Source of the DNA: Sulfuriroseicoccus oceanibius
Lineage (GTDB): Bacteria; Verrucomicrobiota; Verrucomicrobiia; Verrucomicrobiales; SLCJ01
DNA length: 64,000 nt
Direction: 5' to 3'
Assembly (NCBI RefSeq): GCF_010681825.2
Contig: NZ_CP066776.1
Coordinates: 1,178,001-1,242,000, forward strand
The notes below the pieces were generated by a model. The model was not told where the DNA came from. It searched no databases and saw only the letters and a program-made list of their open reading frames with translations. The position numbers and the translations under genes were made by a program. Shown one piece after another: positions 25,296 to 58,083 of the stretch; the stretch's first letter is position 1, and each line of letters begins with the position of its first letter.

Positions 25296-26501
25296 ATGTC
25301 TGAGCACTACATCTTCTCCTCTGAGTCGGTCGGCGAGGGGCATCCGGACAAAGTCTGCGATACCATCTCCGACGCCATCCTCGACGCCTGCCTGGCGGAC
25401 GATCCGAAAAGCCGTGTGGCCTGTGAAACGTTCGTGAAGGACAACATGGTCGGAGTGGCTGGTGAGATCACCACAAATGCCGATGTCTCCTACGAAGATC
25501 TCGTGCGCGACACCGTGCGTGAGATTGGTTATTGCGAGGACGCGGTGGGCTCCGAGCCGGACAAGTACAGCTACACCTGTAAGTTCGACGCGGATCATCT
25601 CTTCTTCCTCAACCTGCTGGGCAAGCAGTCGCGTGATATCGCCCAGGGCGTGGACGCGGAAGGCGCGGATCACAAAGGCACCGCCGAGCAGGGTGCTGGT
25701 GACCAGGGCATCATGTACGGATACGCGGTGCGTGAGACCGACGAGTTGTTGCCGATTCCAATCGCCTACGCCCACCGTCTGGGGACCAACTTGCGCGAAC
25801 TGCGCCGGGGTGGCAACCACGGGTGGCTGCGTCCGGATGCCAAGACCCAGCTTAGCGTGGAGTACAATGGCAACACGCCGACCCGTATCGCTGCGGTGGT
25901 GGTTTCGACGATGCACGCACGTGAGATCGATACGCCGGAGATCCGCGAGATCCTCAAGCGCGATTTGATTTTGCCGACCTTGCCGGAGAACCTGATCGAT
26001 GACCGCACGGAGTTCCTGATCAACCCGACCGGACGATTCGTGGTCGGTGGCCCTGAGGGGGACGCTGGTCTGACCGGGCGCAAGATCATTGTGGACACCT
26101 ACGGTGGTGCCGGCCGTCACGGTGGTGGTGCTTTCTCTGGTAAAGATCCATCGAAGGTGGACCGCTCGGCTGCTTACATGTGCCGCTGGGTGGCGAAGAA
26201 CATCGTCGCCGCAGAGCTTGCGGACCGCGTTGAGTTGCAGGTTGCGTATGCGATCGGCCACCCGCATCCGGTGAGCTTGCAGGTGGACACTTTTGGCACC
26301 GCCCATGTGGATCCGGCCAAGATCAAGAAAGCGGTGAACGAGGTGTTCTCGTTCAAGCCTGCCGACATCGTCAGCTCGCTCGATCTGTTGCGCCCGATTT
26401 ACGGAGCGACCACCAACTACGGCCACTTCGGTGCCTCCAGCGCGGATTTGCCATGGGAGCAGGCGAACAAAGTCGACGAGTTGCGGGCGGTTGTTGGTTA
26501 G
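25296..26501 (+). CDS. metK: S-adenosylmethionine synthetase
   Basis: A 401-residue cytosolic enzyme making SAM from methionine and [28 protein letters not shown] at the N-terminus, [12 protein letters not shown] (the GAGDQG signature), and [25 protein letters not shown] (the GGGAFSxKDP signature) are all present. ATG 25296 is chosen; the upstream frame is not conserved. The shared 63-base region with the SahR-like regulator suggests joint control. The gene is separated from ahcY by the inverted-repeat cassette at 26517-27016, so the two may once have been adjacent. Confidence 0.97.
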
Positions 26502-26516
26502 GGCTGCGTTAAAAGT

Positions 26517-26544
26517 TTGCTAGTTTTCAGTGTTCAGTTTTCAG
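26517..26544 (+). repeat. Left terminal inverted repeat of the four-helix-bundle cassette
   Basis: Reads TTGCTAG followed by TTTTCAG, TGTTCAG, TTTTCAG, i.e. one variant heptamer plus three near-identical ones. It is exactly complementary to 26989-27016. Confidence 0.95.
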
Positions 26545-26615
26545 GGGCGTGTTGCGGGAGTCGCTCGTAATGGGGGATCCGGTGCTGCTTCTTGGGGCTG
26601 AACAAATCGCACATC

Positions 26616-26999
26616 ATGTCTTTGAGTACGTTCGAGGATCTGGAGGTTTGGAGACGCGCGTCCCGATTGGCGGTGGACGTCTGCGTTGCTTACCACGAGT
26701 CCAAGAATTACGCGCTCAAGGACCAGCTCATTCGCTCGTCGCTTTCGATCCCTTCCAATATAGCGGAAGGCGCGGAGCGCGATGCTGATGGGGATTTCAA
26801 ACGATTTCTTCGTATCGCAAAGGGCTCGTGCGGAGAACTGAGAACGCAACTTTACATCGACCAGCGCACCCGGGAATCACTGGGACTCCCGGTTCCAGAG
26901 GCACTTTCTAGTTTCATCAGCGAAACCAGAGAAATCGCCGCCATGCTCCAAGGCTTGATCAGCAGCATCGATCGCCGCAGCAATCATTCTGAAAACTGA
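26616..26999 (+). CDS. Four-helix-bundle protein of the S23 / rRNA-intervening-sequence family
   Basis: 127 residues from ATG 26616 (MSLSTFEDLEVWRRASRLAVDVCVAYH). LEVWRRA near the start, then LKDQLIRSSLSIPSNIAEGAERDADGDFKRFLRIAKGSCGELRTQL, is the diagnostic pattern of the S23-type four-helix bundle, first seen in insertions in 23S rRNA genes and related to the Avd accessory protein of diversity-generating retroelements. Here there is neither an rRNA gene nor a reverse transcriptase nearby. The gene lies wholly within perfect inverted repeats, and its stop codon (26997-26999) falls inside the right repeat. The biochemical role of free-standing members is unknown. Confidence 0.9.
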   Translation: MSLSTFEDLEVWRRASRLAVDVCVAYHESKNYALKDQLIRSSLSIPSNIAEGAERDADGDFKRFLRIAKGSCGELRTQLYIDQRTRESLGLPVPEALSSFISETREIAAMLQGLISSIDRRSNHSEN

Positions 27000-27016
27000 A
27001 CACTGAAAACTAGCAA
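26989..27016 (-). repeat. Right terminal inverted repeat of the four-helix-bundle cassette
   Basis: Reads CTGAAAA, CTGAACA, CTGAAAA, CTAGCAA on the plus strand, the exact reverse complement of 26517-26544. It contains the stop codon of the four-helix-bundle gene. Confidence 0.95.
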
Positions 27017-27059
27017 CCTTTCCCCGCTAGTTCGAAACCTCACAAACTACAAAATACCC

Positions 27060-28487
27060 ATGTCTACTACAACTATCCCAACCGACGACTACAAGGTCGC
27101 GGACATCACGCTTGCTGACTTTGGTCGCAAGGAAATTGAAATTGCCGAGCACGAGATGCCGGGCTTGATGGCGACACGCGCCAAGTACGGACCTGAGAAG
27201 CCGCTGGCCGGTGTGCGCATCATGGGCTCGCTGCACATGACCATCCAGACCGCTGTGTTGATCGAAACACTGGTCGAGCTGGGTGCCGAGGTGCGCTGGG
27301 TTTCGTGCAACATCTTCTCGACTCAGGATCACGCGGCGGCTGCCATTGCCAAAGCAGGTGTGCCTGTGTTCGCCTGGAAGGGCGAGACGCTTGAGGAATA
27401 CTGGTGGTGCACGTGGCAGGCGCTCGTTAACCGCGATGGCCTCGGTCCTCAGTTGATCGTCGACGATGGTGGTGACGCGACATTGCTCATCCACAAAGGT
27501 TACGAGATGGAGAATGGCTCGGACTGGGTGAACCAGCCGGCCTCGAGCGAGGAAGAGCAGGTGATCAAGAACCTACTCAAGAAGATCGGCGCAGAGCAGC
27601 CAGGCATCTTCGCCAAGATCGTTGCCGACTGGAAGGGTGTGTCGGAAGAGACCACCACCGGTGTCCACCGTTTGTACCAGATGGCCAAAGAGGGAACCTT
27701 GCTCGTTCCTGCGATCAACGTGAACGACTCGGTGACCAAGTCGAAGTTCGACAACCTGTACGGTTGCCGTGAGTCGTTGGTCGACGGCATCAAGCGTGCG
27801 ACCGACGTGATGATTTCCGGCAAGGTGGCCGTGGTTTGTGGATACGGTGACGTTGGCAAGGGCTGTGCCCAGGCGCTGCGTGGCCAGGGTGCCCAGGTCG
27901 TGGTGACCGAGGTCGACCCGATCTGCGCCCTGCAGGCTGCGATGGAAGGCTACCGCGTGCTGACTGTGGAAGACACACTCGGCTGGGGTGACATCTACGT
28001 GACCACCACCGGTAACTACGACATCATCCGTCTTGAGCACATGGAGAAGATGAAGGATCAGGCGATTGTTTGTAACATCGGCCACTTCGACAACGAGATC
28101 CAGATCGAGAAGCTCAACAAGGCGGAAGGCGTGGTGAAAACCAACATCAAGCCGCAGGTGGACAAGTACACGTTCCCAACGGGTAACAGCCTCTACATGC
28201 TGGCTGAAGGTCGCTTGGTGAACCTCGGCTGCGCTACCGGTCACCCAAGCTTCGTGATGAGCAACAGCTTCACCAACCAGACGCTGGCTCAGATCGACTT
28301 GTGGAAGAACAAGGACAAGTACCAGGCCGGCGAAGTGATGGTGCTGCCGAAGTACCTCGACGAAGAGGTGGCACGTCTCCACTTGGAGAAGATCGGCTGC
28401 AAGCTGACCAAGCTGAGCCCTGAGCAGGCTGCGTACATCGGCGTTGAAGTCGAAGGTCCGTTCAAGCCAGAGCACTACCGCTACTAA
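27060..28487 (+). CDS. ahcY: Adenosylhomocysteinase
   Basis: A 475-residue cytosolic NAD-dependent enzyme that splits S-adenosylhomocysteine into adenosine and homocysteine, relieving inhibition of methyltransferases. [40 protein letters not shown] and the NAD-binding [34 protein letters not shown] are the two family signatures; the C-terminus ends in the expected KPEHYRY. The central insertion ([30 protein letters not shown]) marks the longer bacterial form. It completes the SAM cycle with metK. A strong terminator follows. Confidence 0.97.
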
Positions 28488-50086: not shown

Positions 50087-50818
50087 ATGGCAGACGAGCA
50101 ACCAACCAAATCATCGGACGACCTGGGCTACGGCTGGGCTGCATTCAAGCAACTGTGGGGCGAAACGTGGCGCGATACGTGGTCGTTCCTCCGTCGTTAT
50201 TGGATCTTCTGGGCGTTGGCGACCATTGCCGTGCTGGTGTGGTGCTTCTATGCCGTTTGGCCGTACGACAAAGATTGGCTCGCGTTCTACCGCGCGATCG
50301 GTGGCGGCAAGAAGAGCGCGACGATGGACTGGGCCAACTTCATCGGCGATTCCGGTGACCTCGCGCAGTACAATATCATCGTTACCGCCGGGTTCTGGTT
50401 TGTCGGGCGTTGGGCGAAAAAGCGCAATTGGCAGAGGATCGCGATTGCCACCTTCATTGCCTGTCTGCTCGCCGGTCTGACGTGCAATGTTTTCCGCGCA
50501 ACACTGGGGCGTCCGCGTCCGAGCGCGCAGATCAAGCAGGAGCTGGACGATCGCTTCTATGGCCCGAAGCCGAAGTCGCATTTCCATGGCTTCCCATCGG
50601 GGCATACCGCCACGGCATTTGGAACGGCGGTGCCAGTGGCGATTACTTCGCCGGTGGTCGGTGTTCCCGTGTTGGCTTACGCCGGATCGATGGGCTGGGC
50701 GCGCATGTACCAATACCAGCATCACCCGACCGATATCATCGTTGGGGGGTATCTCGGGGTGATGTTTGGCGTGGCGGCCGCGGCATCGGTGCGGAAGAGG
50801 CGGAAGGGAGATTGCTAG
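50087..50818 (+). CDS. PAP2-family phosphatase
   Basis: 243 residues from ATG 50087; a GTG 18 bases upstream is an alternative. Helices YWIFWALATIAVLVWCFYAVW, YNIIVTAGFWFVGRW and IAIATFIACLLAGLTCNV enclose the phosphatase motifs: RATLGRPRP (C1), FPSGHTATAFG (C2) and WARMYQYQHHPTDIIVG (C3). These catalyse dephosphorylation of lipid phosphates such as phosphatidate or undecaprenyl pyrophosphate at the membrane. The stop codon TAG at 50816-50818 lies inside the left heptamer repeat of the 50812-52115 block, so the C-terminus (KRRKGDC) may have been shortened or replaced. Confidence 0.86.
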   Translation: MADEQPTKSSDDLGYGWAAFKQLWGETWRDTWSFLRRYWIFWALATIAVLVWCFYAVWPYDKDWLAFYRAIGGGKKSATMDWANFIGDSGDLAQYNIIVTAGFWFVGRWAKKRNWQRIAIATFIACLLAGLTCNVFRATLGRPRPSAQIKQELDDRFYGPKPKSHFHGFPSGHTATAFGTAVPVAITSPVVGVPVLAYAGSMGWARMYQYQHHPTDIIVGGYLGVMFGVAAAASVRKRRKGDC

Positions 50819-50840
50819 TTTGCTAGTGTTCAGTTTTCAG
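50812..50840 (+). repeat. Left heptamer repeat of the 1.3-kb block
   Basis: Built of TTGCTAG twice, then TGTTCAG and TTTTCAG. It contains the stop codon of the PAP2 gene. It matches 26517-26544 except for a duplicated TTGCTAG unit and one heptamer. Confidence 0.85.
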
Positions 50841-50932
50841 TGGGGGCGTGGCGGCGGAGTTTGCGCGGCCATCGGGTGACGGCTGTGGCTTTGGTGGAAT
50901 CGCAGGCTCGGTCGGGAATGGGGGTGGGGATG

Positions 50933-51939
50933 TGGTCGCTGCGCTCCGTAGGGATTGGTGGCCGGATTGGAAACCGGCGGTCCGTGGGGCGCTGCGTGAT
51001 GCGGAGGGGGGCATGGAGGTTCGACGTCCTCGTCGACAGGCGGCTGGCTTTCCGTGGACGTCGAGGGGTGGCGGAGTCGCGCGTTCAACCTCAAGAGTGA
51101 GGTTGCTCCATCGACGCAAGCATGACGATGCGAAGCGCTGGAGGGATGGCGTTCCTGCCGTCGGTGAGGTGGGGTGATGGTAGTGGTCGCTGCGCTCCGT
51201 AGGGAATGGTGGCCGGATTGGAAACCGGCGGTCCGTGGGGCGCTGCGTGATGCGAGGGGGGGCATGGAGGTTCGACGTCCTCGTCGACAGGAGGGACGGG
51301 GGGCTGCGTGGACGCCGAGGTGTGGCGGAGTCTCGCGTTCAACCTCAAGAGTGAGGTTGCTCCATCGACGCTCGTATGACCATGCGAAGCGCTGGAGGGA
51401 CGGCGTTCCTGCCGTCGGGATGGCGGTGCGGTGATGGTAGTGGTCGCTGCGCTACGTAGGGATTGGTGGCCGGATTGGAAACCGGCGGTCCGTGGGGCGC
51501 TGCGTGATGCGGAGGGGGGCATGGAGGTTCGACGTCCTCGTCGACAGGAGGGGCGGGGGGCTGCGTGGACGCCGAGGTGTGGCGGAGTCGCGCGTTCAAC
51601 CTCAAGAGTGAGGTTGCTCCATCGACGCTCGTATGATTGAGCGAAGCGCTGGAGGGACGGCATTCCTGCCGTCGGTGCGGTGATGGTAGTGGTCGCTGCG
51701 CTACGTAGGGATTGGTGGCAGGATTGGAAACAGTCGGTCCATGGGGCGCTGCGTGATGCGAGGGGGGGCATGGAGGTTCGACGTCCTCGTCGACAGGAGG
51801 GACGGGGGTGTTTGGTTTTGCGTGGACGTCGAGGGGTGGCGGAGTCGTGCGTTCAACCTCAAGAGTGAGGTTGCTCCATCGACGCTCGTATGATTGAGCG
51901 AAGCGCTGGAGGGACGGCGTTCCTGCCGTCGGGATGGCG
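50933..51939. repeat. Four tandem copies of a ~250-bp unit rich in palindromes
   Basis: Copies begin with TGGTCGCTGCGCT at 50933, 51184, 51441 and 51690, i.e. spacings of 251, 257 and 249 bases. Each unit holds the same series: CCGGattggaaaCCGG; a GACGTCCTCGTCGAC palindrome; AACCTCA-agag-TGAGGTT; the tag GCTCCATCGACG; GCGAAGCGCTGG; and GACGGCgttcctGCCGTC. Copies differ by a few substitutions and short indels (the stretch after CGACAGG is longer in copies 2-4). Translated frames give near-identical Arg/Pro-rich peptides and are not supported as genes. Confidence 0.9.
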
Positions 51940-57919: not shown

Positions 57920-58071
57920 GTGAGAGCGTGAGAGCGTGAGAGCGTGGGAGCGTGGGAGCGTGGGAGCGTGGGAGCGTGGGAGCGTGGGAGCGTGGGAGCG
58001 TGGGAGCGTGGGAGCGTGGGAGCGTGGGAGCGTGGGAGCGTGGGAGCGTGGGAGCGTGGGAGCGTGGGAGC
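57920..58071. repeat. 8-bp tandem array, 19 copies
   Basis: Three copies of GTGAGAGC (57920-57943) are followed by sixteen copies of GTGGGAGC (57944-58071), without interruption. The period of 8 is not a multiple of 3. It is a microsatellite-like array, likely to vary in copy number. Confidence 0.97.
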
Positions 58072-58083
58072 GTGGTGTCGCGG

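Follow-up and report, generated by a model that had tools for sequence, protein, structure and literature searches.

The S23 element between metK and ahcY

We analysed a window of 64,000 nucleotides from the 3.50-Mb genome of Sulfuriroseicoccus oceanibius (G000). Between metK and ahcY, and so not in an rRNA gene, the window carries a single gene of the S23 four-helix-bundle family framed by two inverted arms (Table 1). All three genes lie on one strand. The arms form a perfect inverted repeat of 28 bp; with the flanking bases included, the match covers 33 nt at 97%, starting at 26512 on the left and ending at 27021 on the right. The chance of a perfect 28-mer pair at such spacing is approximately 64000 x 1000 / 4^28, far below 1e-6. 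A chance inverted repeat was ruled out by this perfect match and by the comparisons of own and swapped arms given below.

The product of the inner ORF matched PF05635 (E=4.3e-27; 94.9 bits against a cut-off of 33.8) and exceeded the cut-offs of the NCBIfam profiles NF008912 and TIGR02436 (95.9 bits against 24). Its TGA stop codon (26997-26999) falls within the right arm. No transposase or recombinase was found in the element, the sole Pfam match of its single gene being PF05635. A simple promoter scan of the surroundings detected no sigma-70-type promoter-like site, which is weak evidence only. When the transcript of the element was folded, the arms paired as a long stem (z -5.8).

Table 1. 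Coordinates of the element, its host genes and a solo arm in the window
Feature	Position	Strand	Basis or remark
metK, host gene left of the element	25296..26501	+	ORF; homologous metK adjoins ahcY in relatives
Left arm (TTGCTAG TTTTCAG TGTTCAG TTTTCAG; four heptamers)	26517..26544	+	exact reverse complement of right arm
S23 / four-helix-bundle gene, 127 aa	26616..26999	+	ORF; PF05635, TIGR02436, NF008912
Right arm (CTGAAAA CTGAACA CTGAAAA CTAGCAA)	26989..27016	+	exact reverse complement of left arm
ahcY, host gene right of the element	27060..28487	+	ORF; 90% identical in G001
Solo arm without S23, TTGCTAGTTTGCTAGTGTTCAGTTTTCAG, end type as in the left arm of the element	50809..50840 (left edge approximate)	+	exact core match at G000:C1:1228825-1228840; sequence read

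An earlier, sequence-only reading of this DNA had described 28-base ends that are exact reverse complements built of four heptamers, around a lone S23-type gene with its stop in the right repeat, the whole parting two genes of the SAM cycle. The sequence, the profiles and the ORF bear out this description, with metK as the left neighbour and ahcY as the right one. The length of exactly 500 bp given there holds if the edges are placed at the perfect 28-mers.

Matched arms are general among S23 genes

The S. oceanibius genome contains seven PF05635 genes, and at least one was present in 50 of the 57 genomes of the order. We scored the left flank of each of 113 elements of the order for pairing with the right flank, comparing own pairs with swapped ones. 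The median score was 42 for own pairs and 17 for swapped pairs. In 75 cases the own partner scored best of all 113, and in 106 it was among the top five. Both flanks showed a period of 7 (autocorrelation 0.37 and 0.36, against 0.25 far away), though some elements had a period of 8, 10 or 11 instead, and convincing arms were missing in approximately 12 of the 113. A set of 75 GTDB loci from Bacteroidota, Planctomycetota, Proteobacteria, Acidobacteriota, Fibrobacterota and other phyla behaved in the same way, with a pairing score of 33 for own and 16 for swapped flanks and a period of 7 at 0.41 and 0.39. As a negative control, the flanks of ahcY scored 17 in both own and swapped pairs and had no period. 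Tandem Repeats Finder overlooks the degenerate arms of S23 genes.

The repeat unit varied from one of the 113 elements to the next. The arms are element-specific, and one fixed end sequence common to the family was ruled out. This goes beyond or against the sequence-only reading: matching of the two arms is general, while CTGAAAA is not fixed and each element has a private repeat. The junctions occupied by S23 genes include metK-ahcY, livG-livF, moxR-DUF58, sucC-sucD, carA-carB and dnaK-dnaJ (gene names assigned partly by reading the proteins). Four of the S23 genes of S. oceanibius lie within approximately 12 kb (L230:10897-19032 and L231:2019-2340; 2.571-2.582 Mb of the genome) in an apparent polysaccharide gene cluster, and the model match of one of them crosses a TAG.

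Arms track the protein and change together

Among 96 elements, arm similarity rose with S23 identity, from approximately 10.5 at <30% to 28 at 60-70% and 41.5 at >70%. The antisense control stayed flat near 9 (Mantel 0/300). The same climb was seen among pairs at unrelated sites. At sites with orthologous flanks, the two arms of one element were more alike than either was to the arm of the ortholog in 28 of 46 compared pairs, suggesting that arms turn over fast and jointly; the pairs are non-independent, and so show concerted change and not a count of events.

Arms and heptamer arrays without an S23 gene

The exact 28-mer occurs in the S. oceanibius genome only at the two arm sites. A search with a 16-nt core of the arm, allowing up to two mismatches, gave 38 matches in this genome (some overlapping, and four of them the element itself) against 3 for a reversed control pattern, which indicates that degenerate copies of the arm are dispersed through the genome. 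We read the sequence around six places with an exact core; all were single arms, none was paired, and most had a GTTTGCTAG-like outer end. One such arm lies in the window (Table 1). Approximately 90 bp from it is a 257-bp tandem repeat of 3.9 copies (window positions 50932-51932), and further on the 8-mer GTGGGAGC is present in 19.5 near-perfect copies (57920-58075).

In Pseudoxanthomonas wuyuanensis, whose genome has three S23 genes, a carA-S23-carB element carries arms of the form CGGGACC(GGGGACC)3. The matches listed for this genome comprised 38 arrays and nine close pairs, and all of the pairs were oriented as in the element. One pair frames S23; the arms of the other eight are 49-178 bp apart, too short a distance for an S23 gene. 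Also in Pseudoxanthomonas, at L356 ~1501-1720, an array of GGGGACT/GGGGACC units is followed by an array of TCGTTTC heptamers resembling the arms of another S23 gene (L373).

Dispersed arrays of 7-bp tandem units, like those of S23 arms, have been reported in other bacteria: GGGAATC arrays in Xanthomonas, with 70-75 convergent pairs (PMC4692102), TAACTGA arrays in Beggiatoaceae (PMC4679880) and GGGACCG arrays in Geobacter (PMC2700814). A text search of the Xanthomonas and Beggiatoaceae papers gave no link to S23. We infer that the arrays of all three groups may derive from S23 elements.

Signs of gain, exchange and decay

We compared filled and empty sites elsewhere in the family. In one genus the moxR-DUF58 junction was filled in one of 30 genomes (G032) and empty in the other 29 that were read, including a congener whose DUF58 is 95% identical. 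Comparison of G032 with the empty site in G071 showed that the insert displaced approximately 60 bp, taking out the spacer together with the former start codon; no target-site duplication was seen in this single filled/empty comparison.

At a site beside an MFS gene, the similarities of flanks and elements were in conflict. Between G059 and G028 the flanks were 87-89% identical and the elements 67%, while between G013 and G028 the flanks were 74-79% and the elements 82% identical. Remnants were also found at this site: G016 retains part of an S23 gene together with the right arm, and G009 possibly some of the left arm. We checked 26 plasmid records for insertion polymorphism, and all were below 60% identity; Calothrix brevissima NIES-22 has two similar contexts on two plasmids.

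These comparisons are signs of gain, exchange and decay and not observed events. The earlier proposal of a minimal mobile or mobilised element agrees well with them at the level of the family, and also with the copies at other sites and the arrays without S23; the copy at metK-ahcY is itself not recent, and no movement of it was seen.

A second family with the same build

A scan for paired arms over 400 kb of the S. oceanibius genome and the window returned two further frames, both around GxxExxY (PDDEXK_3) genes (L229:3280-3784 and L236:9707-10243) and one of them between nuoD and nuoE. Their arms are inverted, approximately 30 nt long and made of short tandem units. Matched arms, taken as those scoring higher than 95% of swapped pairs, were present at 21 of the 29 GxxExxY loci of the order. 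Like S23 elements, GxxExxY (TIGR04256 / PF13366) loci span ~500 bp and are framed by inverted arms that match each other and consist of short tandem units. They differ in the protein, which is unrelated and belongs to the PD-(D/E)XK superfamily, and in the unit, which by eye is approximately 9-11 nt long. A gene-poor region (L230:12980-13930) contains the repeated motifs CCGCAGATT..CGCAGATTG, AATCATGTCAATCCTGTCTAA and CGCAAAG, resembling GxxExxY arm units.

Alternative explanations

The strongest competing explanation places the function of the arms in RNA: they would be complementary because a stem cut by RNase III releases the S23 part of the operon mRNA, in the manner of the intervening sequences (IVSs) of 23S rRNA. 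In keeping with this, both neighbours run in the direction of S23 in 100 elements and opposite to it in 9 (crude ORF calls), the transcript at metK-ahcY folds as described above, and RNase III cleaves in vitro the IVS of Coxiella, whose terminal stem is 28 bp long and which also contains heptamers (PMC4990558). However, G.U mismatches between the arms were in no excess on the sense strand under strict alignment (125, against 153 antisense), looser alignments tilted further towards antisense G.U, and the gene-less pairs and solo arms need no function in RNA excision. We regard this explanation as unlikely, though of the four alternatives it is the one that keeps most weight.

A second possibility is that S23 at metK-ahcY is an ordinary resident gene of the operon, vertically inherited, with a local role and regulatory arms. 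Related S23 genes occupy this junction in six genomes from three families (G000, G001, G048, G020, G024 and G053), and all six fall within one supported clade of nine members. Such a distribution also fits long vertical residence. Yet metK and ahcY are contiguous without S23 in many of the order's other genomes. The element is thus not fixed in all relatives; fixation in all of them, with the repeats found nowhere else, is what the sequence-only reading would have taken as a sign of immobility. The same clade is also found elsewhere, with two of its other three members at sucC-sucD (in one of these, L027, the contig covers the sucD side alone) and the third beside nrdB. L027, from a different family of the order, has the nearest arm, agreeing with ours at 22 of 23 bases, and an S23 protein 52% identical. 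Other S23 genes lie at unrelated operons. We regard an ordinary resident gene as improbable.

That Y1 transposases of the IS200/RAYT type mobilise the element in trans, by acting on hairpins of the arms, is weakly possible, and we give it little credence. Y1_Tnp was found in 51 of 57 genomes, its partial correlation with S23 counts was 0.31, and the six genomes free of Y1 have no S23 gene or one. This correlation is weak and not controlled for shared ancestry, some Y1-free genomes nevertheless carry an S23 gene, and the arms are private to the S23 lineage and not to the transposase. Mobilisation by a reverse transcriptase, suggested by the resemblance of Avd from diversity-generating retroelements to PF05635 (PMC10053308) and well suited to a sense-oriented RNA intermediate, is the least credible of the four, because no RVT_1 match was found in G000, in G032 with its recent gain or in G053 with its 16 S23 genes, and S23 and reverse transcriptase counts were uncorrelated once genome size was removed (partial r 0.02).

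Proposed mechanism

The best reading of the build, the element-specific match of the arms, its tracking of the protein, the sense bias, the signs of gain, replacement and decay and the arrays without S23, all established at the level of sequence, is a minimal mobile element related to the IVSs of 23S rRNA and resident in operon junctions. In this model the unit would consist of a lone S23 gene framed by two inverted arms, each an array of short tandem repeats. It would reside between genes that are transcribed together, and its expression probably comes from the host transcript. The copy at metK-ahcY is, on this view, an old resident of its junction. An S23 oligomer would recognise its own arms and help the unit, as well as copies consisting of arms alone, to enter intercistronic DNA. 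The solved relatives of S23 are 2GSC, a five-bundle assembly, and 2RLD. The strand chemistry would probably come from host enzymes, because the S23 family has no nuclease or recombinase motif known to us. One arm may be copied into the other at the DNA level, by template switching or by gene conversion through a hairpin, since the two arms of an element change in concert as orthologous elements grow apart. A mobile element working by self-recognition of the arms, host chemistry and DNA-level equalisation is, in our judgement, the probable explanation, and it suggests that S23 cassettes represent a type of minimal mobile element in bacteria that has received little study. Against it count that neither direct movement nor a target duplication or excision product was seen, that the metK-ahcY junction is occupied in six genomes of three families, and that the gene-less arms read in S. 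oceanibius are unpaired.

A broader proposal is more speculative. S23 elements could be a class of minimal mobile element widespread across many phyla, each joining a small oligomeric protein without catalytic activity to private tandem-repeat ends; protein and ends would co-evolve, and the ends would be copied into each other. Such a class could be the source of many unexplained heptamer arrays of bacteria. The IVSs of rRNA would then form one branch of it, and GxxExxY elements would be a parallel invention. We put this forward tentatively, as possible but somewhat doubtful. S23 genes annotated as 'four helix bundle' are common in the genomes searched, and the build common to many phyla makes their role testable as recognition of ends by a protein. 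The proposal also offers a common origin for rRNA IVSs and for dispersed heptamer arrays earlier read as regulatory signals, and GxxExxY is a second family pointing to the same logic.

Comparison with known systems

REP/RAYT systems (REPtrons) have a gene within inverted ends and many gene-less copies of those ends. The S23 element resembles them in its inverted ends and in the dispersed copies, seen here as the excess of core matches, the six solo arms and the inverted pairs of Pseudoxanthomonas. It differs in having no Y1 transposase, with a four-helix-bundle gene in its place, and in ends that are tandem arrays private to each element. The short gene-less pairs of Pseudoxanthomonas, with the ends of a gene-bearing element, recall MITEs; in contrast to these, the S23 element has no recognised transposase and showed no target duplication in the one filled/empty comparison. 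The same two features, the lack of an encoded transposase or recombinase and of a target duplication at moxR-DUF58, set it apart from classical insertion sequences and transposons. Avd goes with a linked reverse transcriptase and with template/variable repeats; no RVT_1 match was present in the S. oceanibius genome.

Among the open-access papers searched, we found no account of S23 genes outside rRNA that are framed by matched tandem-repeat ends private to each element. The protein family is already known, and of the known systems the rRNA intervening sequence comes closest. S23p-coding insertions occur in the 16S and 23S genes of CPR bacteria (PMC11270868). In Coxiella burnetii, the 23S IVS is 428 nt long, encodes S23p and ends in a 28-bp inverted repeat, with tandem GACAGAT heptamers of strain-variable copy number upstream of the ORF (PMC4990558). 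Protein family, size, a 28-bp terminal inverted repeat and tandem heptamers are thus common to both, and the S. oceanibius element likewise has an S23 ORF within a perfect terminal stem that folds. The difference is that it lies between protein genes, and the IVS papers contain no description of matched arrays, specific to each element, at sites other than rRNA. Since it lacks the defining location, we do not file it as an IVS; by analogy it may nevertheless work like one, and there is a real chance that the S23 element is a new class.
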